Program-made: the position numbers and the translations under genes
Source of the DNA: Pseudochrobactrum kiredjianiae
GTDB taxonomy: Bacteria; Pseudomonadota; Alphaproteobacteria; Rhizobiales; Rhizobiaceae
DNA length: 64,000 nt
Direction: 5' to 3'
NCBI RefSeq assembly: GCF_030362795.1
Contig: NZ_JAUCBM010000012.1
Span: forward strand, 1-64,000
The notes under the pieces: model-generated
The model's input: the letters and a program-made list of their open reading frames with translations, nothing else
Databases searched by the model: none
Told to the model about the DNA's origin: nothing
In this document: piece by piece, positions 3,571-63,273 of the stretch
Layout of the letters: every line of letters begins with the position of its first letter
Position numbering within the stretch: position 1 is the stretch's first letter

Positions 3571-4446
3571 TTAAGGTTTTGTGGCAAACATATCGGCCAA
3601 AGTTGCGGCAAAGCTTTTAGCGATTGTTGAGCGGTTTTTGTCGGTGCTGACATAAATTCCGACAACGGCATCTCCCAATTGCGGGAGATTGGGATTCGCT
3701 GTAATTGCCCGCAGCGTCGGCGGAATAACGCGATCTGCTAAGGCAGTAATCCCGAAGCCACCCTGCAATGCAGCCGTAATACCGGTCAGGCTGGGGCTGG
3801 TATAAACAATTTCGAAGCTTTTTCCTTCGCGCTGCAAAGCGGTCAGCATATTGCGGCGGTACAGGCAGCCTTCAGGATAACAGACAATACGCAGATCGTT
3901 GCTGGCTTTGTCGTCCATATAAGCGGGGAGATCACTATTGCCGCCCACCCACGAAAGCGTTTCTTTCCATGTCATGAATACGCCTTCTGCGGGGCCATCA
4001 GCAGTCATGGCGACGACAATATCCAGCAACCCTGCGCGTAAACCCCGTAACAGATTGTAGGACAGATCACAGGTGATATCAAAAGTCATATTGGCTGTTG
4101 TGCTGTTTTGGCTGCCCATCAGTTGTGGTAAAAAATGATCGGCATAATCATTTGGTATCCCAAGCCGAAGTCTGCCGATCGTCTCGCGTTTTGAGAGCTT
4201 CAGCATCATTTCATCGTTGAGAGCCAGTATTTGTCGTGCATAGCTGGCAACGGTCTCGCCATATTCAGTGAGCTGGGCACCGCCGTCTTTTGAAAATAGT
4301 GAAGTGCCGAGCAGTTCCTGCAAGCGCTTCATTTGCAGGCTGATTGCTGGCTGCGTTCGCCCCAGTTGTTCACCCGCCCGTCCATAGCCTCTCAAGTCTA
4401 TAATAGTGACAAATGTCCTGAGCAGATCTGTCGGAATATTGCGCAT
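3571..4446 (-). CDS. LysR-family transcriptional regulator
   Basis: The start at 4446 gives 291 aa, the normal LysR length; a longer in-frame extension to 4581 is not LysR-like. The N-terminal winged helix-turn-helix (about residues 1-60: LLRTFVTIIDLRGYGRAGEQLGRTQPAISLQMKRLQELLG) binds DNA. The rest is the two-lobed effector-binding domain. It lies 167 bp downstream of an MHS-type permease and a creatinase, all on the minus strand. It is therefore a likely activator of that pair, with creatine or a related compound as effector; this is inference from context. The substitution of Gly-Tyr in the usual GS(F/I/L)T turn is a minor oddity. Confidence 0.88.
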   Translation of the reverse strand: MRNIPTDLLRTFVTIIDLRGYGRAGEQLGRTQPAISLQMKRLQELLGTSLFSKDGGAQLTEYGETVASYARQILALNDEMMLKLSKRETIGRLRLGIPNDYADHFLPQLMGSQNSTTANMTFDITCDLSYNLLRGLRAGLLDIVVAMTADGPAEGVFMTWKETLSWVGGNSDLPAYMDDKASNDLRIVCYPEGCLYRRNMLTALQREGKSFEIVYTSPSLTGITAALQGGFGITALADRVIPPTLRAITANPNLPQLGDAVVGIYVSTDKNRSTIAKSFAATLADMFATKP

Positions 4447-40831: not shown

Positions 40832-40921
40832 GGAGGGGTGGCCGAGTGGTTTAAGGCACCGGTCTTGAAAACCGGCGTGCGGGAGACCGTACCGTGGGTT
40901 CGAATCCCACCCCCTCCGCCA
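40832..40921 (+). tRNA. tRNA-Ser(TGA), prophage attachment site
   Basis: A 90-nt class II tRNA: acceptor stem GGAGGGG/CCCCTCC, discriminator G, encoded CCA, anticodon stem CCGGT/ACCGG with loop CTTGAAA (anticodon TGA), long variable arm. An integrase gene starts 79 bp after its 3' end, so the 3' part of the tRNA is the likely attL core. Confidence 0.97.
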
Positions 40922-40999: not shown

Positions 41000-42172
41000 A
41001 TGGCAAAAGGGCACGGAATGGCACGGAATAAACTATCAGAAACACGAATTCGGTCGCTTGCTAAGGCTGGCATATATTCGGATGGCGATGGTTTGTTTTT
41101 GCGCGTTCGTTCTGGTGGATCAAAACAATGGTTTTTCATATTTAAGCGCAATGGTCAGCGCACGGAAATTGGCCTCGGTGGATACGGGCAGGGTACTGCT
41201 CCGGTGCCACTGTTGCTTGCTAGAGAAAAGGCTGAGGAAATCAGGCAGCGCTTATCGCGTGGTGAAAAGTTACATCGGCGGAAAACATTTGCTGATATCA
41301 TGGATGATGTGCTGGACGTTAAAAAGGCAAGTTTTCGTAACGATAAGCACAAAGACCAGTGGGTCATGACACTGACAAAGTATGCAGCGGCTCTGCATAA
41401 GGTACCTATAGCTGATATTACCCGTGATCATGTTGTCGAAGTATTGAAACCAATCTGGACAAAAATACCAGAGACTGCAGATAGGACGCGTCAACGCATT
41501 GCTGCTGTTATTGATCACGCCAAGGCTAGAGGTCTCTATACAGGCGACAACCCAGCTGATTGGCGTGGTGGATTAAAAGAACTATTGCCTGCGCGTAGTA
41601 AATTGACCAGAGGCCATCACGCTGCTGTTAGTTATAAAGAGCTTCCTGGAGTTTTGGTGAAGTTGCAGCAGTCACTGGCAGTTTCAGCACGCGCTGTTGA
41701 ATTCATCGCATTAACTGCAGCAAGATCTAATGAAGCGCGGTCAATGACATGGATGGAAATAGACTTTACAGAAAAGCTATGGACCATACCTGCTGAACGA
41801 ATGAAGGCTGGCAAGGCTCATGAGGTTCCACTGACGGATCGAGCTATCCAAATTTTAAAGGATCAAGAAGCAGTCAGAACGAGTGATCTGGTCTTTGAAG
41901 GTGAGCGCGTAGGCAGGCCAATTTCGGATACTGCAATGGTAAAAGTATTTCGAGCGGCAGGTGCCGGTGATGCAACTCTCCATGGGCTGCGTTCGTCATT
42001 GCGTGATTGGGCTGGTGATGAAACGGATTATCCACGTGATGTTGCGGAAGCTGCTTTAGCCCATACAGTTAAAGATAAGACTGAGGCAGCATACCGGCGC
42101 GGCACTGCTTTAGCTAAGCGCCGCGCGATGATGGATGAATGGGAAACCTATTTATACCGGTCGCGGGATTAA
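41000..42172 (+). CDS. Phage tyrosine integrase
   Basis: Site-specific recombinase for prophage integration at tRNA-Ser. The 390-aa protein has an N-terminal arm-binding domain (ARNKLSETRIRSLAKAGIYSDGDGLFLRVRSGGSKQWFFIFKRNG, DUF4102 type as in P4 integrases). The catalytic domain holds R242 (AARSNEAR), H328-x-x-R331 (HGLRSSLRDW), H355 (ALAHTV) and nucleophile Y365 (AAYRRG). All catalytic residues are intact, so it should be active. The start is either 41000 (after GAGG) or the ATG at 41018. It is convergent with, and overlaps by 4 bases, the AlpA-like gene. Confidence 0.95.
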   Translation: MAKGHGMARNKLSETRIRSLAKAGIYSDGDGLFLRVRSGGSKQWFFIFKRNGQRTEIGLGGYGQGTAPVPLLLAREKAEEIRQRLSRGEKLHRRKTFADIMDDVLDVKKASFRNDKHKDQWVMTLTKYAAALHKVPIADITRDHVVEVLKPIWTKIPETADRTRQRIAAVIDHAKARGLYTGDNPADWRGGLKELLPARSKLTRGHHAAVSYKELPGVLVKLQQSLAVSARAVEFIALTAARSNEARSMTWMEIDFTEKLWTIPAERMKAGKAHEVPLTDRAIQILKDQEAVRTSDLVFEGERVGRPISDTAMVKVFRAAGAGDATLHGLRSSLRDWAGDETDYPRDVAEAALAHTVKDKTEAAYRRGTALAKRRAMMDEWETYLYRSRD

Positions 42173-46810: not shown

Positions 46811-46863
46811 AAATGCGCATTACGCACATTTGTGTCAATAGCAAATGTGCGTAATGCGCATTT
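46811..46863. promoter_or_regulatory. Leftward operator/promoter (OL/PL analogue): 22-bp perfect inverted repeat
   Basis: Bases 46811-46832 and 46842-46863 are perfect inverted repeats of 22 bp separated by 9 bp. Each arm contains the operator TGTGCGTAATGCGCA. The spacer holds TTGACA on the minus strand (46833-46838), so two operators flank the -35 box of a leftward promoter, and one of them fills the -35/-10 spacer. A further partial site (TGTGCGTAATATCGA) lies at 46886-46900. Confidence 0.85.
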
Positions 46864-49617: not shown

Positions 49618-50958
49618 ATGACTCATGTTAATGATCCATATTCCGCTGCGCCCGCCAAGGCGAAAAGACCAGTTAAGGGCAAGCTGGCACCGGTAAAAAC
49701 TTCAAAAGCGTTGAAATCTAAGCCTAAAGTAAAGGTGGTTGCTGAGCCGGAGTTTTATCCTGCACATCCGCTGGCTGATATGTTTCCGATGATTGATGAG
49801 CCGGAACGAATCTTGCTTGCGGATGATATTGCCGCGCATGGTCAGCATGAGCCAATATTGCTGTTGGAAGGCATGGTACTCGACGGTCGGAACCGGCAGT
49901 GGGCGTGCCGCCATGCCGGTGTGAAGCCGGTTTATGCTGATTATACCGGCGCGGATCCGCTGAACTTTGTGCTTTCCAAAAATTTGCACCGGCGGCACCT
50001 GACCGAAAGTCAGCGGGCAATGGTTGCCGCTTCCATTGTCGATTGGGAACGTGGTGTAAATCAAAATACTGCAGGGACTGCAAATTTACCGACCCGTGCA
50101 GCGGCGGCAAAGCTGTCTATTTCAGAACGGGCAGTGAGTGCGGCGCGGCGTGTGCGCGACCACGGTGCACCGGAGTTGATTGACGCTATTCGTGCAGGCA
50201 AGGTTTCGATCCATGCCGGTGAGGCGCTGTCTGAGCTGCAGCACGAAGAACAGTGCAAGATTGTTCGTCAAGAGCAGAAACAGATTGTCGCGAAGGCAAA
50301 GGAAATCCGCACGCATAAGCAGCGGGTGCGCCATGCGGCGCGCCTTATCAAGATGGAAGCCGTGGCGCGGCATGGCAGCGAAACCGCGCCGGATAAGGTT
50401 TTGCAGAAGTATCCTGTTATTTACGCGGATCCGCCTTGGAAATTTGGCGTGCGATCAGAGGTGACCGGACGCGAAAAGAGTGCGGAAAATCATTATCCGA
50501 CAATGGATACGGCTGACATTTGCGCGTTGTTTGAGAAAATCGGCGATCCGGTTTCACAAGATGCGGTGCTTTTTCTCTGGGCAACCAATCCAATGTTGCC
50601 ACAGGCTATGCAGGTCATGCAGGCATGGGGGTTCACTTATATTCACCACTGGATCTGGGACAAGCAGGTCGCCGGTACCGGATATTGGGGGCGCGACCGA
50701 CATGAGCTGCTGTTGATTGGCAGGCGTGGCGATGTGGCCGCGCCATTGATGGGAACTCAACCGGAGACTGTTTATTGTGAGAAAAAGGGTAGGCATTCAG
50801 CCAAGCCTGCATATTTCGCGGAACATATTGAAAAATTTTATCCGGATATCCCGAAGTTGGAAATCTTCTGTCGTTCAGCGCGTTCCGGTTGGGATGCCTG
50901 GGGCTATGAGGCGGGGGCTGTAGGTGATTCCCACGGCACGGTGTCTCATGAGTACTGA
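49618..50958 (+). CDS. ParB-domain / MT-A70 adenine methyltransferase fusion
   Basis: A 446-aa two-part protein. Residues about 45-130 form a ParB-N-like domain (HPLADMFPMIDEPERILLADDIAAHGQHEPILLLEGMVLDGRNRQWACRHAG, KNLHRRHLTESQRAMVAA), followed by a helix-turn-helix region (to about 215). Residues about 262-435 are an MT-A70 methyltransferase with the catalytic DPPW at 271-274, LFLWATNPMLPQAMQVMQAWGF and the RHELLLIGRRG segment. It should methylate adenine N6 in DNA, with the ParB half giving targeting. Together with the cytosine enzyme the phage has two DNA methyltransferases. Confidence 0.9.
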   Translation: MTHVNDPYSAAPAKAKRPVKGKLAPVKTSKALKSKPKVKVVAEPEFYPAHPLADMFPMIDEPERILLADDIAAHGQHEPILLLEGMVLDGRNRQWACRHAGVKPVYADYTGADPLNFVLSKNLHRRHLTESQRAMVAASIVDWERGVNQNTAGTANLPTRAAAAKLSISERAVSAARRVRDHGAPELIDAIRAGKVSIHAGEALSELQHEEQCKIVRQEQKQIVAKAKEIRTHKQRVRHAARLIKMEAVARHGSETAPDKVLQKYPVIYADPPWKFGVRSEVTGREKSAENHYPTMDTADICALFEKIGDPVSQDAVLFLWATNPMLPQAMQVMQAWGFTYIHHWIWDKQVAGTGYWGRDRHELLLIGRRGDVAAPLMGTQPETVYCEKKGRHSAKPAYFAEHIEKFYPDIPKLEIFCRSARSGWDAWGYEAGAVGDSHGTVSHEY

Positions 50959-51466: not shown

Positions 51467-51678
51467 GTGATCCGGTAAACAATCCAAAGCATTACAATAG
51501 CCATCCGTCTGGTGTGGAGTGCATCACCATTACTGAGCATATGGGTTTTAACCTTGGGAATGCCATGAAATACATCTGGCGAGCAGATGAGAAGAATGAC
51601 GCGATTGAAGATTTGCAAAAGGCACGTTGGTATATTGAGCGTGAGCTGTCTCTACGTGCAAGGAGGGCAGCGAAATGA
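51463..51678 (+). CDS. DUF3310 family phage protein (SaV-like)
   Basis: The 71-aa product from the ATG at 51463 carries the complete short DUF3310 motif: NNPKHYNSHPSGVECITITEHMGFNLGNAMKYIWRADEKNDAIEDLQKARWYIERE. The domain is common in phage early genes and resembles a nucleotide kinase accessory; its function is unknown. It is coupled by 4-base overlaps on both sides. Confidence 0.88.
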   Translation: MSDPVNNPKHYNSHPSGVECITITEHMGFNLGNAMKYIWRADEKNDAIEDLQKARWYIERELSLRARRAAK

Positions 51679-52889
51679 GCGGTGGCTCTCGTGCATGGTC
51701 ATGGCGCCATGCTTTCTCAACAGCCAGCCTGCCAGCAACGACAAAGCATGTCTTACATACACTCGGCATGTTCATGAATGAGGTGGGTGAGGGCTGTTAT
51801 CCGTCCGTTGCGGATATTTGCCGCTATAGCGGTTTGGATAAGAAAACAGTCCTGAAGCATCTGGGTGTTGCCCGTGATGCTGGATGGATTGCTGTCTCAC
51901 AGCACGGCTATCGTGGCCAGAAATGGAAGCGGCAGGAATATGCTGCCTGCTGGCCGGAGCGTGACCTGATTGCTGCCTGTGCACCAGCAGAACAGATTGA
52001 AGGCGGTGGAGCAATTCCACCACCTTGCATGGATAAGGTGGTGGAATTGGTTCCCGAAGGTGGTGGAATTGAGGGATCAAAGGTGGTGGAGCAGCTCCAC
52101 CAAGATAAGACCAGTCCAATAACCACTCCAATAACCAGTCCAATCGAGAGAGGCGTGCGCGAAGAAAATTCGAATTCAGAAAAGCAGGAAGATCGAAAAT
52201 CCCTTGAGCGTTCGTTTTGGAAAATCGTCAAGGATTGGCCTCAAATCGAGGGCATGCCGAAAGACAAATGGTTGGCAGCTTGGATGCGGCTCACACCGGA
52301 GGAACGTGTAGAAGCTGCTGAAAAGCGGGATGCTTGGCTTGCCCTGCTCAAAACGAACAAACGGGATAATGTTCCTGTTCCTGAGACTTATTTCCGTGAA
52401 AAGCTTTGGAAAGACGTACCTGAGAGCCTGCTCAAATCATCTCAGGGTGATGGTTTAGACGGTCGGGTGAAAGCTCCAGCGTTTGGAAATATGTGGGCTG
52501 CGAATGTCTATCGGGAGCTCTGGGCTGGAGCCACAGCACCACAATCATTGGATAATTACGATCAAAAACTTGTCGATGACGGGCGGTATTCAGCTGAACA
52601 TATCTTGCTCGGCAAAGAAGCAAGATACGGCTTTCCGAATGTGAATATGCTGTTTGATCGTGCAACAGCCTTTCGAGGTTTGCTTGTTACGGCTGATTTG
52701 AAGCCTGTTTCTAACGCTATGGTTCCTGTGTTGGTAGGTGGTGACGTCTGGCATGAATTGCAGGATGAGCATGCCAAACGGGGCTGGCCTTGGTTTCCGA
52801 AGCCCGGAAAGCAAACGCATGTCTGGTTACCGAACGGTGTTGCCGGTCTGAATGAGATACAGAAACTTTGGCAAGGATTGGACAAATGA
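51675..52889 (+). CDS. Phage replication initiator (O-like), with the origin inside the gene
   Basis: A 404-aa protein with an N-terminal winged helix (about residues 15-85: SLPATTKHVLHTLGMFMNEVGEGCYPSVADICRYSGLDKKTVLKHLGVARDAGWI), of the type found in lambda O and phage helix_turn_helix_36 proteins. A flexible Gly/Pro-rich linker (about 108-160) follows. The C-terminal half (about 175-404) has no named domain and may contact the host helicase. The linker-coding DNA carries a regular iteron array (52000-52101) followed by AT-rich direct repeats, as in the lambda origin. The gene overlaps both neighbours. Confidence 0.78.
   Translation: MSGGSRAWSWRHAFSTASLPATTKHVLHTLGMFMNEVGEGCYPSVADICRYSGLDKKTVLKHLGVARDAGWIAVSQHGYRGQKWKRQEYAACWPERDLIAACAPAEQIEGGGAIPPPCMDKVVELVPEGGGIEGSKVVEQLHQDKTSPITTPITSPIERGVREENSNSEKQEDRKSLERSFWKIVKDWPQIEGMPKDKWLAAWMRLTPEERVEAAEKRDAWLALLKTNKRDNVPVPETYFREKLWKDVPESLLKSSQGDGLDGRVKAPAFGNMWAANVYRELWAGATAPQSLDNYDQKLVDDGRYSAEHILLGKEARYGFPNVNMLFDRATAFRGLLVTADLKPVSNAMVPVLVGGDVWHELQDEHAKRGWPWFPKPGKQTHVWLPNGVAGLNEIQKLWQGLDK
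52000..52147. other. Candidate phage replication origin (iterons plus AT-rich repeats)
   Basis: Exact copies of AAGGTGGTGGAATT occur at 52013-52026 (inverted), 52035-52048 and 52057-52070. Degenerate copies lie at 52000-52010 and 52080-52090, giving a regular step of 22-23 bp (two helical turns). A direct repeat CCA(G/C)TCCAATAA follows (52111-52145, three units), which could be the unwinding region. The layout inside an initiator gene is that of lambdoid origins. Confidence 0.7.
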
Positions 52890-53545
52890 TGATGCTGGAT
52901 AAGAGACTTATTGAGCAGGCAGAGCACATTGATCTTTCCCGCTGCTATAAAAAAAGCGACCGGATTATTTCACAGCGCCGGATACGTGACAGTGGAATCG
53001 CCAAGCTTTCAGTACGTGCTGAGAGTGATGCCCCATGGCTTGTGTTGAAAGTGATGACCGGTCGTGAGTTGGAAGTTGGAGAAATGCTGCAAAAAGCGGA
53101 TGTCGAATCTCTTGTGCCGATGAAAATGGGCAAGGAAATTCGCCGCCGCCGCTTTGTTACTCCCGCTCGTAAGGAGCCTGTTTTTATCGGTTACCTCTTT
53201 GCACGTTGTATTATTTCTAACGATACAATGGCGGCTTTATTGGGCTTTAATCATGTGACCGGCATACTTGGTGGATATGAGAAACCATATCTTGTGGCGG
53301 CAAGAAATGTCTTATCTTTCAATGAGAAAGCCAATGAAGGTCATTTTGATTATGAAGTTCCTCATGCAGTGTATCGCAGAGGTATGAAGGTGGTTGTCAA
53401 AGATGGAATCTTTGCAGGATCTCGGGGAGAGATCATCTCAGGCGGAAGTGATGGAAAAGGCACTGCGGTTGTGGGAGTGCATTTTTTAGGCGGTCTGACA
53501 CCTGTAATCATGCCCCTTGCTATTCTTGAGCCTTTGTGTGCGTAA
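52886..53545 (+). CDS. Phage NusG paralogue (NGN + KOW), probable late antiterminator
   Basis: The ATG at 52886 overlaps the previous stop; 219 aa. A NusG N-terminal domain is visible (about residues 48-150: APWLVLKVMTGRELEVGEMLQKADVESLVPMKMGKEIRRRRFVTPARKEPVFIGYLFARC), then a KOW-type domain (about 165-215: RRGMKVVVKDGIFAGSRGEIISG). NusG paralogues such as RfaH travel with RNA polymerase and suppress termination at specific operons. Its position as last early gene, just before a structured leader and terminator ahead of the head genes, is that of a lambda Q-type switch. The function is inferred. Confidence 0.82.
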   Translation: MMMLDKRLIEQAEHIDLSRCYKKSDRIISQRRIRDSGIAKLSVRAESDAPWLVLKVMTGRELEVGEMLQKADVESLVPMKMGKEIRRRRFVTPARKEPVFIGYLFARCIISNDTMAALLGFNHVTGILGGYEKPYLVAARNVLSFNEKANEGHFDYEVPHAVYRRGMKVVVKDGIFAGSRGEIISGGSDGKGTAVVGVHFLGGLTPVIMPLAILEPLCA

Positions 53546-53757
53546 TGCCCTCACGGATGATCCGATGATCCTGTAGTGAGCCTCTGAGAACGCCTAGACA
53601 GCGGGAACGTAAGTTCTGAGGTTGGTACGCCGGTCGGACCCTTACTCTGAAAGTCTCAACATGAGACACCGATTCAGAGCCAGTGCGTAAGCTATGTCTT
53701 GAAGTTACCAATCTCATTGAGCGCCGATTTGGCGCTCTTTCTATTTGTATAGGGTAG
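53546..53757 (+). promoter_or_regulatory. Structured untranslated segment before the late genes
   Basis: 212 bp without a gene. A two-step hairpin at 53645-53679 has the outer stem CTCTGAA/TTCAGAG and inner stem GTCTCA/TGAGAC. An imperfect stem CCTCTGAGAAC...GTTCTGAGG lies at about 53580-53622, and the terminator follows. It could be a recognition element for the NusG paralogue or a phage RNA acting in cis. Confidence 0.55.
53719..53737 (+). terminator. Terminator upstream of the late (virion) genes
   Basis: GAGCGCC-GATTT-GGCGCTC followed by TTTCTATTT. It stands between the NusG-like gene and the first virion gene, so late expression would need read-through or a promoter beyond it. Confidence 0.8.
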
Positions 53758-53763
53758 ATGCTC

Positions 53764-54333
53764 ATGTCGATCATTTCTGTGAAGTGGGCTGATAATCATC
53801 TGACTAAGTTCGGAACCAAGATTGATCAGTTGAAGACGACCTTTCCGAAGGTCTTACCACGCATCGTCAATCAGGTTGGCAACAGGGCAAAAACGCAAGT
53901 TGTTCGCAATCTGACGAAACAGACCGGTTTGCCGCGTAAGACTATTGTTGAGGCAATTGGCAATCCATCTGCGGCACGTTTTGGCAAGCTATCCTATGAA
54001 ATGGTGACACGGGGCGGCAATGTTCGTCTGAAGTATCTGGACCCCAAGGAAACGCGCAAAGGTGTTTCTGCTAAGCCTTTTGGCAAGCGGACACTGTTTA
54101 GCGGCACGTTTATGATGGGTGGCAAGTTTCCTAACCGTAAGGATGTCGGTAAGTTTGAAGGGCATGTAATGTTCCGCAACAGATCAAGCGGACGGCAATA
54201 TAGTGTTGTTCGCTCCGGTGTCGTTATCCCTCAGGAAATGACTTCTGGTGCAACCTCCGCAGCGTTCGAGAGAACAGCAGCCCCTTTGCTTCAGCAGCGT
54301 GTAGAAGCGGCGCTTCGCAAGCTGGTACCATGA
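53764..54333 (+). CDS. Phage minor tail protein, GpZ-like
   Basis: A 189-aa basic protein resembling prophage minor tail protein Z: KFGTKIDQLKTTFPKVLPRIVNQVGNRAKTQVVRNLTKQTGLPRKTIVEAI, then aromatic beta-rich sequence and a C-terminal helix. In lambda, Z helps complete tail attachment. Its place ahead of the terminase genes, rather than in the tail module, is atypical. The ATG at 53764 is favoured by AGGG 8 bases upstream; the ATG at 53758 is also possible. Confidence 0.72.
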   Translation: MSIISVKWADNHLTKFGTKIDQLKTTFPKVLPRIVNQVGNRAKTQVVRNLTKQTGLPRKTIVEAIGNPSAARFGKLSYEMVTRGGNVRLKYLDPKETRKGVSAKPFGKRTLFSGTFMMGGKFPNRKDVGKFEGHVMFRNRSSGRQYSVVRSGVVIPQEMTSGATSAAFERTAAPLLQQRVEAALRKLVP

Positions 54334-54489
54334 GACCGAAGCCATTTTGAAAGGGCGGGCAGTATGCCCCCCTCGGTTGGGTCCTTCTTCAGACCCTTGC
54401 CCTTAGCGGGTAGGCGCGACTGCGGGATTTCGCTCTGTGTGAAATTTTACAAGGGGATTCCACCGCCCTTTGAATGGAATCGGAATCAC
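54334..54489. other. Intergenic segment before the terminase genes (possible cos/pac region)
   Basis: 156 bp with several inverted repeats: AAAGGGCGG (54350-54358) against CCGCCCTTT (54463-54471), and GGGTC/GACCC around 54379-54396. In lambda-like genomes the packaging site lies immediately before the small terminase gene, so this is the natural candidate. The cut site cannot be located by eye. Confidence 0.35.
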
Positions 54490-55221
54490 ATGGCTAAAAG
54501 CTATTCTGATGAGCTGCGCCTTCAGGTTGTTGCCTTCATCAATGAGGGGCATACTGTTCGGCAAGCTGCCGAAAAGTTTGGTGTGAGTCCGAGCTTCGCG
54601 GCGAAAACGCACAAAAAGCATTCAGAGCAGGCGGCTATACCACTGTTAGCTGAGGTGGAACCGGCAGTAGAACCTGAACCATCCTTTACGGATGCAGAAA
54701 TTACAGCCTCTGACCTCGCTGAAATGTTCGGTGTCTCAAAGCGGTCGATCTCCGATTTTGCTGAGCGTGGAATCATCGTGAAGACAGGTCGGAATCGCTT
54801 TTCCTTACAAAAGTCTGTTCATCTCTATTGTGACCACCTGCGCGGGATCGCAGCAGGGCGCGGCGGCGACAATGCTGATGCTCTAACCGTGGAGCGTGCG
54901 CGATTAGCTGCAGAGCAGGCCGATAATGTGGCGATGAAAAATGCTGTTCTGCGCCGTGAGATGGTGGCTATCTCAGATGTTCGAAATGAATGGGTGACGA
55001 TAGGCAGGCGACTGCGCAATGAGATGATGTCCGTTCCATCCCGTTGTCGCCAGATGCTGCCGCATCTCACTACGTTTGATGTTGATTTAATCGACAAGGA
55101 AATCAGAGCCGCACTGACCGGGCTGGGTGTAAAAGACAATGACAGCGCTGACGACATTGCGGAAGGCTCTGTGGGAATGCCTGACACCGCCGCCGAAACT
55201 GAAGCTCTCGGATTGGATTGA
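54490..55221 (+). CDS. Phage terminase small subunit (Nu1-like) with extra N-terminal HTH
   Basis: The 243-aa protein from the ATG at 54490 (GGAATC upstream) recognises phage DNA for packaging. It has two DNA-binding segments: a transposase-type HTH at residues 5-45 (YSDELRLQVVAFINEGHTVRQAAEKFGVSPSFAAKTHKKH) and a Nu1-type winged helix at about 75-110 (ASDLAEMFGVSKRSISDFAERGIIVKTGRNRF). A helical region for large-subunit contact follows (VERARLAAEQADNVAMKNAVLRREMV). The first HTH looks borrowed from an IS OrfA. The gene overlaps the large subunit by 83 bases. Confidence 0.85.
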   Translation: MAKSYSDELRLQVVAFINEGHTVRQAAEKFGVSPSFAAKTHKKHSEQAAIPLLAEVEPAVEPEPSFTDAEITASDLAEMFGVSKRSISDFAERGIIVKTGRNRFSLQKSVHLYCDHLRGIAAGRGGDNADALTVERARLAAEQADNVAMKNAVLRREMVAISDVRNEWVTIGRRLRNEMMSVPSRCRQMLPHLTTFDVDLIDKEIRAALTGLGVKDNDSADDIAEGSVGMPDTAAETEALGLD

Positions 55222-56938
55222 GCAGACAGTTTATTTGCCGGAAGGCGTTTCATCTCTGACAGGTAAGGTACGCCTCTGGCCACCACAGCGGGAAATAGCG
55301 GATGCTATCGGCGATGCAGCATTGGAGCGAGTAACACTCGTCAAGCCTGTGCGTGTCGGCTTTACCACTTTGCTGACCAGTGCCATGGCCAGTTACTGTT
55401 CGAATGATCCGTCACCGATTTTGTCTTTGTTACCGACTGAGGCTGACTGCCGCGACTATATGGTTTCGGATGTTGAACCGATCTTTGATGCGTCACCGGA
55501 TCTGCATGGTTTGTTGACGGGGGACACGGATGAGGGCGGTAGAAATACACTTCTCTCCCGTCGCTTTCCCGGTGGTTTTCTAAAGGTGATTGCTGCGAAA
55601 GCACCGCGTAACCTTCGCCGTCACAATGTTCGCATCCTGTTTATTGATGAAGCGGACGGCATGACGGCAACAAAAGAAGGGTCACCAATCCTTCTGGCAG
55701 AACGCCGAACCTTGTCTTTTGCAGATCGCAAGATCGTCATGGGGTCTACACCGGTCTATGAAGAAACCAGCCATGTGCTGCAGGCTTATGAGCAATCAGA
55801 TAAACGTATCTATGAGGTACCCTGTCCTGAGTGCGGTCATTTTCATGAGATCCAATGGGCAGATATTCAATGGCCTGAAGGTGAGCCAGAAAAAGCGCAT
55901 TATATCTGCCGTGATTGTGGCTCCGTTATTGATGAGCGTCATAAGCCGGAAATGGTGGCGAATGGCCGATGGCGTGCCTTGCGACCGGAAATTAAGGATC
56001 ATGCGGGCTTCAGGATGAATGCCCTGATATCGCTTTTACCAAATGCTTCATGGGGACGTTTGGCTAAGGAGTTTGTCGGCGCGAAGAATGATCCTTCGAA
56101 ACTACAGACCTTTATCAATACAATCCTTGCCCAAGGCTGGAAGGAAAGCACGGATGAGCTGGATGATCTCGAGCTTGCAAGTCGGGCTGAGGATTTCAGT
56201 CTTTGTATTGATGGTGATCTAGGTACGACTGGTATCCCGATTCAGGTTCTCATAATTACGGCAGGCGTTGACGTTCAGGATGATCGTTTAGAAGTCACCT
56301 TCATCGGTTGGGATAAAGAGGGTATTCCCTATGCTCTAGGACAATCAGTGATCTGGGGACGTTACGATGATCATACAACGTGGTCAGAGCTTCACGTCAC
56401 GCTCAATACCGAGTGGGATCATCCGCTTGGCGGCAAGATTAAAGTTGAAGCCACCTGCATCGACAGTTCGGACGGTGAAACGATGGAAACGGTCTATCGT
56501 TTCGCTTTCCCACGCTTCCGCAGACGCATTTATGCAATCAAAGGTGTTGGCGGTAACCGGCCATGGATTGAGAAATCCAAATCAACAGTGAAGGGCGGCA
56601 AGCTTTTCATCGTCGGTGTTGACGGGATCAAAAGTCATATTTTCGGACGTCTTGCACGGGCGAACTCAATGCGGTTTTCGAAGGCCTTGCCTGATGTCTG
56701 GTTTGAGCAGCTGGTTGGGGAACAATTGGTCGTTAAGTATTCACGTGGGCAACCAGTCCGGCAATTTGTTCCGGTACCTGGACGACGACATGAGGCGCTT
56801 GATTGTACGGTTTACGCCTTTGCTGCCCGCCAGATGGTGAATGCGAATTGGGCACATCGTGAAGGTGAGTTGTCGACACCACCTGAAACCAAACCGGTTT
56901 CGAAACTGCCAGAAATAGCACAATCGGAGTGGCTGTAG
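55139..56938 (+). CDS. Phage terminase large subunit, GpA family
   Basis: Packaging motor and endonuclease, 599 aa, GpA family (PF05876) as in lambda. The N-terminal ATPase has LVKPVRVGFTTLLTSAMASY in place of a classical Walker A, and VRILFIDEADGM as Walker B. The zinc-ribbon CPECGHFHEIQWADIQWPE...YICRDCGSVI (about 225-265) is typical of the family. The nuclease part includes VLIITAGVDVQDDRLEVTFIGW and ends with AFAARQMVNANWAHREG. The start at 55139 lies inside the small subunit gene; no strong ribosome site is seen. Confidence 0.94.
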   Translation: MTALTTLRKALWECLTPPPKLKLSDWIEQTVYLPEGVSSLTGKVRLWPPQREIADAIGDAALERVTLVKPVRVGFTTLLTSAMASYCSNDPSPILSLLPTEADCRDYMVSDVEPIFDASPDLHGLLTGDTDEGGRNTLLSRRFPGGFLKVIAAKAPRNLRRHNVRILFIDEADGMTATKEGSPILLAERRTLSFADRKIVMGSTPVYEETSHVLQAYEQSDKRIYEVPCPECGHFHEIQWADIQWPEGEPEKAHYICRDCGSVIDERHKPEMVANGRWRALRPEIKDHAGFRMNALISLLPNASWGRLAKEFVGAKNDPSKLQTFINTILAQGWKESTDELDDLELASRAEDFSLCIDGDLGTTGIPIQVLIITAGVDVQDDRLEVTFIGWDKEGIPYALGQSVIWGRYDDHTTWSELHVTLNTEWDHPLGGKIKVEATCIDSSDGETMETVYRFAFPRFRRRIYAIKGVGGNRPWIEKSKSTVKGGKLFIVGVDGIKSHIFGRLARANSMRFSKALPDVWFEQLVGEQLVVKYSRGQPVRQFVPVPGRRHEALDCTVYAFAARQMVNANWAHREGELSTPPETKPVSKLPEIAQSEWL

Positions 56939-63010: not shown

Positions 63011-63273
63011 TGCCGTTAATCGTCAGGCTTGGGGATACATCCAGTCACGGCGGCACCGTTATCTCATCAGCATCAAAGTGGATGTGTGAGGGAAAACTGA
63101 TCGCCCGCAAAGGTGATCTGCATTCCTGCCCTATACCCGGACACGGGGTAACACCGATCACCGCAGGCTCGACAAAATTTAAATGTGAAGGTGATCCGGT
63201 CGCCCGTCATGGGGATAGCGCCGGTTGCGGTGCCATGCTGATTTCCGGTGCATCGAAATGGTCATGTGAATAA
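63010..63273 (+). CDS. PAAR-domain spike tip protein
   Basis: An 87-aa PAAR protein that sharpens the tail spike: LGDTSSHGGTVISSASKWMCEGKLIARKGDLHSCPIPGHGVTPITAGSTKFKCEGDPVARHGDSAGCGAMLISGAS. It contains His and Cys residues (H13, H37, C39, H44, H66, C72) suited to bind the metal at the apex. Start overlaps the gpV stop (TAATG). Confidence 0.92.
   Translation: MPLIVRLGDTSSHGGTVISSASKWMCEGKLIARKGDLHSCPIPGHGVTPITAGSTKFKCEGDPVARHGDSAGCGAMLISGASKWSCE

Follow-up and report, generated by a model that had tools for sequence, protein, structure and literature searches.

We analysed a stretch of 64,000 nucleotides (nt), the window, at positions 1 to 64,000 of the forward strand of contig NZ_JAUCBM010000012.1 (88 kb) of Pseudochrobactrum kiredjianiae, whose genome measures 4.46 Mb. 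At the border between the early and late genes of a probable prophage in this window, a gene for a phage paralogue of NusG is followed by a structured leader RNA, an intrinsic terminator and the first late gene. The arrangement looks like a so far undescribed late-gene switch: with a probability that we put at roughly three in four, the phage NusG would be loaded on RNA polymerase at the leader and would take the enzyme past the terminator and on into the late genes. The elements concerned are:

52886-53545, + strand: gene of the phage NusG paralogue, with an NGN domain and a KOW-type C-terminal domain (Pfam PF02357; PHROG 6386; profile match to NusG and RfaH chains)
53555-53696, + strand: predicted conserved, structured leader RNA of about 140 nt (compensatory changes)
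53719-53745, + strand: intrinsic terminator, a stem-loop at 53719-53737 with a T-rich tail (terminator scans; recurrence in relatives)
53758-54333, + strand: first late gene, for a tail completion or Neck1 protein, starting at 53758 or 53764 (PHROG 27, E = 2.9e-18)

The nusG frame spans 52868-53545 and probably begins at the ATG at 52886, which overlaps the stop codon of the preceding gene. The NGN domain of its product matches Pfam NusG PF02357 (E = 1.7e-13; 51.3 bits against a cut-off of 22.2), and the product as a whole matches PHROG 6386, 'transcription antiterminator' (E = 3e-27). The Pfam scan reported no match to the KOW model for this product; the KOW-type domain is seen in a profile of the family (alignment A4, with 76 proteins, 70 of them a selection at 80% identity from 118), positions 164-219 of which match the NusG C-terminal chain 1nz9 at 9.5e-14. 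The family profile also matches solved NusG and RfaH chains. The initial annotation had read a NusG paralogue with NGN and KOW domains at 52886, and both parts of that reading hold. A lambda-like Q protein was set aside because Pfam places the product in the NusG family.

Three NusG-domain genes occur in this genome: the window paralogue, a paralogue on another contig (C5) and a housekeeping copy, whose neighbouring frames look by eye like those of ribosomal protein L11 and elongation factor Tu. A tree was built of 95 proteins, including 50 of the 70 selected A4 proteins; it was rooted at its midpoint, and its deepest forks are weak. In it, 30 chromosomal-type NusG proteins form one group with 100/100 support, and the phage-type proteins fall outside it in several deep clades. 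The window NusG is a specialised paralogue: the genome has its own housekeeping NusG as well, and the window protein does not belong to that clade. The C5 gene (locus L002, 1357-2161, at about 266237-267038) is a second phage-type paralogue and lies behind a frame that by eye resembles a replication initiator; L002 also has an RNA copy that scores weakly (25 bits) and ends in GC-GAA-GC-TATG, and the long frames that follow are oppositely oriented.

The leader RNA begins about 10 nt past the nusG stop codon. A fold of ten helices was derived with RNAalifold from 34 leaders of the window's class (class A, picked by 5′ signature and length; alignment A5). In the window its parts are predicted as follows:

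53555-53556/53640-53641, + strand: P1a, in the junction domain 53555-53641
53561-53566/53633-53638, + strand: P1b, a long-range helix (also a family-wide strand-swap test)
53569-53572/53575-53579, + strand: P2
53580-53584/53618-53622, + strand: P3
53591-53593/53601-53603, + strand: P3a
53604-53606/53615-53617, + strand: P3b
53623-53625/53630-53632, + strand: P4
53645-53679, + strand: P5, a two-step hairpin with lower stem 53645-53650/53674-53679 and upper stem 53653-53657/53663-53667 (covariation in A2 and A5)
53681-53696, + strand: P6, the ops-like motif CAGTGC-GTAA-GCTATG, a mini-hairpin and then TATG (motif in 33 of 42 leaders)

The two-step hairpin lies exactly where it had been claimed (CTCTGA/TCAGAG and GTCTC/GAGAC), and the further small stem claimed after it is also there; the initial annotation had covered just the 3′ third of an RNA that is about 140 nt long and recurs in many phages. 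In A5, 96.8% of cells pair, a value that leans towards structure because the structure was derived from the same alignment; when the partner is slid by one column, pairing falls to 43-45%. Fourteen pairs are changed on both sides, and the 73 such cells, as against 22.5 in shuffles, were equalled in none of 500 shuffles; the count of further pair types is unremarkable (169 of 500 shuffles).

A wider sample comprised 42 leaders, seven near-duplicate viral contigs being omitted. Their 3′ cores were chosen by the GC-loop-GC motif of P6, which nine leaders lack; the 33 cores, less the near-duplicate L004, make up alignment A2 (32 divergent leaders), so that the constancy of GC-loop-GC in A2 is partly due to selection. 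The covariation score of A2 is 0.177 against a shuffle mean of 0.106, and neither this score nor the number of cells changed on both sides was equalled in 500 shuffles; 14 of these shuffles had as many pairs changed on both sides, and 29 had as many further pair types. The core model R1 was built from A2 and therefore matches its rows by construction.

Pairing in P1 was evaluated across the family with the 150 of 161 leaders that have a GGAY(N)A start, collapsed to 46 or 50 combinations. Over 50 distinct strand pairs, P1b forms 20 perfect six-pair helices; 1000 swaps gave 5.2 on average and never more than 13. The fixed-place test of P1 gave a mean of 3.93 (46 combinations; swapped maximum 3.65), and that of P1b with one base of slack gave 5.24 (50 combinations; swapped maximum 4.80). 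These fixed-place tests replaced a best-helix scan in free register, in which own strands were barely separable from swapped ones (means of 13.8 and 13.0; scores of at least 14 in 21 of 61 own and 385 of 1187 swapped pairs). The P1b result shows RNA-level pairing that spans the entire junction domain, joining the sequence after nusG to that before P5.

Folded as a single sequence, 53546-53757 does not rise above chance (z of -1.5; 13 of 200 shuffles as good), and nor does a terminator scan of 51600-55300 (three found, 3.8 expected). The signal beyond chance lies instead in conservation, that is, in compensatory pairing and in recurrence beside NusG. On this comparative evidence, 53555-53696 is a conserved structured RNA with compensatory changes. 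None of the 4227 models of Rfam 15 matches inside 53546-53757 up to E = 5, and with 12 relatives the leaders likewise gave no match up to E = 1, EAR and JUMPstart (RF01707) included; a known RNA family was set aside on this ground.

The leader is retained in all 14 viral contigs found through the protein (the R1 core is identical in eight), in four annotated phages found in the same way (five records, one a duplicate) and in 21 of 29 genome loci with protein identities of 26-45%. Searches by RNA alone led back to the protein. A 23-base pattern matched 89 viral and 45 genome stretches, and 128 of these 134 have the end of a NusG frame 86-182 nt upstream. Of the six others, five are no more than 190 nt from an edge of their stretch; the sixth, L191, falls within a frame of 166 codons on a Doudnabacteria contig, no NusG was found in the 8 kb of that stretch, and we rejected it as a chance match. 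A second pattern, with a UACN loop, matched 46 viral contigs, with NusG 91-149 nt upstream in 42 and the remaining four within about 190 nt of an edge. Together, the two patterns matched 180 stretches of public viral and species genomes: 170 with NusG just upstream, nine edge cases and the one chance match. These hits contain duplicates, and the distinct leaders with NusG number 97 (of the 128) and 39 (of the 42). Of 43 genome leaders, 18 have the same sequence as a viral one.

Genomes named among the matches to the 23-base pattern include Rhizobium, Agrobacterium, Sinorhizobium/Ensifer, Neorhizobium, Shinella, Mesorhizobium, Martelella, Hoeflea, Brucella/Ochrobactrum and others; with the exception of L191, we take the named hosts to belong to the Hyphomicrobiales. 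The record of one annotated phage gives a Nostoc host. In the genome of P. kiredjianiae itself, a covariance model gave two weaker matches with no NusG in about 3 kb and two at E < 0.01, both of them immediately 3′ to a nusG paralogue of the phage type. At 30 chromosomal-type nusG loci, the best leader match reached E = 0.21; this negative control arose from a class-wide profile search that proved too broad, its 29 loci outside this genome all being chromosomal-type. An order-wide model search matched 7 of 397 genomes, five of them weakly and at loci with no NusG in about 3 kb; with its stricter filters and 14 candidates scored per genome, this search says little about absence.

A second leader type stands behind nusG in L039, L041, L042, L043 and L200. 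By eye, P1-like pairing and the hairpin appear to be kept, and the 3′ end differs (GCGATGGGNACCTAT in L039, L043 and L200); a pattern search for this type gave one match. In Rhizobium phage PPF1 (L055), a hypothetical coding sequence, PPF1_92, is annotated over the leader RNA at 3589-3741, with an R1 match at 3644-3698; it is possibly an annotation artefact.

The terminator that had been placed at 53719-53737, ahead of the late genes, proved to be the only rightward intrinsic terminator in the roughly 29 kb from 47493 to 76458 at the thresholds of the scan (stems of at least 7 pairs, 5 G-C among them, with a T-rich tail). It ends 20-26 nt ahead of the first late gene, a space that leaves no room for a late promoter, and the promoter scan, which covers other promoter types poorly, found no sigma70-like site on the + strand of the leader. 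A late promoter after the terminator was set aside on these two grounds.

A terminator follows within 150 nt in 48 of 59 non-redundant leaders, as against 35 of 1180 shuffles (3%); two of the 61 non-redundant leaders, with less than 100 nt downstream, were left out. The rule is our own, and it both misses and over-calls (a clear hairpin in L130 is followed by too few T to count, and the call in L163 is doubtful). The next open start codon lies 15-18 nt beyond the terminator in 21 of 46 cases, and in 43 of them the distance does not exceed 28 nt. The distance from the RNA to the terminator varies from 7 to 95 nt. The frames beginning within 500 nt downstream of the 61 leaders include an HNH gene in 39, a neck gene of the window type in seven, and other or unclassified in 15. 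At one locus (L025 1258-1334, which is the same as L157 4494-4570), a tRNA-Met(CAT) gene on the - strand lies between the leader RNA and the terminator.

Around nusG genes that were annotated or found by protein, GC-loop-GC is present in 33 of 42 leaders, and the bases after it are TATG in 29, CATG in two, and TTTG and TGTG in one each. Among the 128 hits of the 23-base pattern the loop is GTAA in 50, GCAA in 44, GAAA in 33 and GGAA in one, and among the 46 hits of the second pattern it is TACA in 26, TACT in 16, TACC in four and TACG in none, in each case within what the pattern allows. Other loops are GTGA in L019, L022 and L024, and a three-base GAA in L002. The order of this motif recalls the ops element of Escherichia coli (ops12, GGCGGTAGCGTG), a hairpin of the non-template strand with the loop GGTA and a single C:G pair that RfaH reads at the paused polymerase (PMC5995543). 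Common to both is GC-loop-GC, then one or two bases, then TG (PMC5995543), and in ops just one C:G pair is held to be real (PMC5995543). We regard this likeness as a resemblance and not as proof of descent.

The probable prophage appears to begin next to a tRNA at 40832-40918, with an integrase at 41000-42172. From 47493 to 76458, almost every long frame lies on the rightward strand: regulators, a CII-like gene, ParB-like and methyltransferase genes, a replication initiator and nusG come first, and are followed by neck, terminase, portal, capsid, tail tape measure and endolysin genes. The genes flanking the switch region are:

51675-52889, + strand: replication initiator-like gene, the last gene before nusG, its stop overlapping the nusG start (Pfam HTH_36, E = 1.8e-10; PHROG 270, replication initiation, E = 1.5e-23)
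54364-55221, + strand: terminase small subunit (PHROG 57, E = 2.6e-30)
55139-56938, + strand: terminase large subunit, GpA (Pfam GpA_nuclease and GpA_ATPase; PHROG 15)

An HTH-domain gene is annotated at the position of the replication initiator in phages Rivra, phi3LM21 and PPF1. Elsewhere in the window, a single frame at 49618-50958 joins an N-terminal half of a ParB-like family to a C-terminal MT-A70 methyltransferase part. At 46813-46861, adjoining the divergent regulators, lies a long near-perfect palindrome with a T-rich tail, which attracts spurious miRNA matches, and at 63108-63175 (+ strand) a sub-threshold match to the Pseudomonas small RNA (sRNA) P10 model (30.4 bits against a cut-off of 37) falls within an open frame.

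We propose that nusG ends the early operon of the prophage and that its transcript runs on into the folded leader RNA. Early transcription would halt at the terminator at 53719-53737, leaving the late operon silent. Once the phage NusG has accumulated, it would join the polymerase while the leader is being made, probably at a pause there, recognizing the leader RNA (P1-P5), the GC-loop-GC-TATG motif, or both; the motif could act in the RNA, as a hairpin, or in the non-template DNA, as an ops-like mini-hairpin. The modified polymerase would then pass the terminator into the head, tail and lysis genes, forming a feed-forward timer that dispenses with a separate late promoter. Comparison among relatives shows the protein family, the RNA fold, the linkage of NusG to the RNA, and the terminator and its position; the pausing, binding, read-through and processivity we infer. 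The core of the initial annotation was that a factor of the NusG type acts on its own leader where early genes give way to late ones, and the linkage, the terminator in most relatives, the gap of 20-26 nt and the ops-like motif all favour this. More tentatively, the platform may have two parts, the RNA of about 140 nt staying on the polymerase with the phage NusG and an ops-like mini-hairpin of non-template DNA positioning the NusG, a version that we consider possible but doubtful.

Several observations weigh against the proposed switch. The R1 core is missing from eight of the 29 genome loci that were reached through the protein, four of these having a different leader by eye, and since adjacent elements are co-inherited, their linkage is in itself no proof of binding between NusG and the RNA. 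The outer pairs of P6 barely vary, and variants mostly break the pairing without compensation, so that its pairing as RNA is unsupported by covariation; the mini-hairpin is weak by energy models and, in its UACA form as DNA, gives no fold whatever. The ops sequence GGCGGTAGCGTG, with up to two mismatches, is absent from the leader, and its five occurrences elsewhere in the window are what chance would give (4.3 expected). Finally, 11 of the 59 leaders show no terminator under the rule used. This last point, together with membership of the NusG family and the ops-like motif, would also suit a phage NusG that raises late expression as RfaH does, by blocking Rho or coupling ribosomes, with a minor part for the intrinsic terminator; given a terminator in 48 of 59 leaders, near the late start codon, we think this unlikely.

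Three other explanations, like the preceding one, partly overlap our proposal, so that the odds need not total one. A large conserved fold preceding a terminator could be a processive antiterminator by itself, with the NusG paralogue as a mere general helper; HK022 put RNA is a known precedent, and epsC/EAR has been noted as an antiterminating RNA (PMC2864571). Such an RNA would open the late genes immediately, without delay, its linkage to the NusG gene is near-perfect, and neither the window leader nor those of 12 relatives match an Rfam family, EAR included, so we hold this to be rather improbable. Starting some 10 nt past the nusG stop and ending before the terminator, the element might instead be a 3′ untranslated region that protects or autoregulates the nusG mRNA, or an sRNA released by the terminator, the late genes being served by another promoter. 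Regulation by 3′ untranslated regions is known, though termed highly unusual (PMC2864571). We give this little credence: at most 28 nt separate the terminator from the next start codon in 43 of 46 relatives, which leaves no promoter space, the leader has no sigma70-like + strand site in a scan that is poor for other promoter types, and the first downstream gene changes while NusG is constant.

There remains an attenuator or riboswitch, in which NusG or a small molecule would switch the leader between two folds, one of them breaking the terminator. In the window, an 11-bp pairing is possible between 53617-53627, a strand of P3 and P4, and 53708-53718, the bases that immediately precede the terminator; a shorter equivalent is seen by eye in L004 and L006/L007 and is not general, so that it is perhaps a lineage-specific alternative fold. 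Pairing of the leader with the linker (8-35 nt) or with the terminator was no better than in swapped sequences across 46 leaders. The variable distance between RNA and terminator, the tRNA gene that separates them in one genome and this swap-level pairing favour an effect carried by the polymerase, and we judge an attenuator very improbable.

In lambda and phage 21, the last early gene encodes Q or Q21, which antiterminates the late genes and is unrelated to NusG. The phage NusG would occupy the same place and the same proposed role; the Q element lies at the promoter (PMC11150451), whereas no late promoter is evident here. GafZ of Caulobacter, which its authors find unlike both Q and AlpA (PMC11150451), likewise provides alphaproteobacterial antitermination over virion genes, those of a gene transfer agent cluster, but it works with host NusA, NusG and NusE and has its putative element in the promoter (PMC11150451). 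The nearest tested case, and the closest known mechanism, is LoaP of Bacillus velezensis, a precedent that the initial annotation had left unnamed. LoaP is a NusG paralogue that needs a hairpin in the dfn and mln leaders and reads through an intrinsic terminator (PMC12691694). The two systems share the NusG paralogue, a leader with RNA hairpin and intrinsic terminator, and a gene near the target operons (PMC12691694); the leader with a terminator before an operon is present in the window and in 48 of 59 relatives. They differ in that the LoaP hairpin is small, with a UNCG-type loop, whereas the phage RNA measures about 140 nt and its target would be the late operon of a phage. The window loop is GUAA, and none of the 46 UACN hits is UACG; other UNCG loops were not sought in the relatives. 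RfaH and ops similarly combine a NusG paralogue with a short leader element, and JUMPstart likewise has a conserved stem-loop (PMC2864571), but here the sequence is not that of ops, Rfam JUMPstart does not match, and a large upstream RNA fold, a terminator and a phage context are added.

Phages phi3LM21, PPF1, Rivra and Nsp-JY10 carry this gene at the corresponding position; their records name it NusG or transcription antitermination protein and annotate no RNA element in the stretches around it. A study of phiLM21-like prophages reports the antiterminator gene in all of them (PMC12429752) and in its available text discusses that gene alone. The main text of the phi3LM21 description contains none of the words antiterminat-, terminator or noncoding (PMC5537653). 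The portions available of publications on NusG paralogues do not discuss phage-encoded copies as a late switch (PMC7819879, PMC7593976, PMC6391919), and one mentions rfaH-like genes on prophages (PMC7593976). We found no description of the leader RNA in Rfam 15 or in the open-access literature searched.

The leader constitutes an RNA family outside Rfam 15, and its 136 distinct natural examples, each behind a NusG frame, offer material on how NusG paralogues choose their targets in RNA or in non-template DNA. If the two-part platform were real, it would be a processive antitermination ribonucleoprotein that unites the roles of LoaP (RNA), RfaH (DNA) and put or EAR (RNA) in one phage late switch. 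If the proposed switch is correct, temperate phages of rhizobia-like bacteria would recurrently turn on their late genes with a NusG paralogue instead of a Q-type protein, which suggests how many prophages of symbionts and soil bacteria may time those genes.

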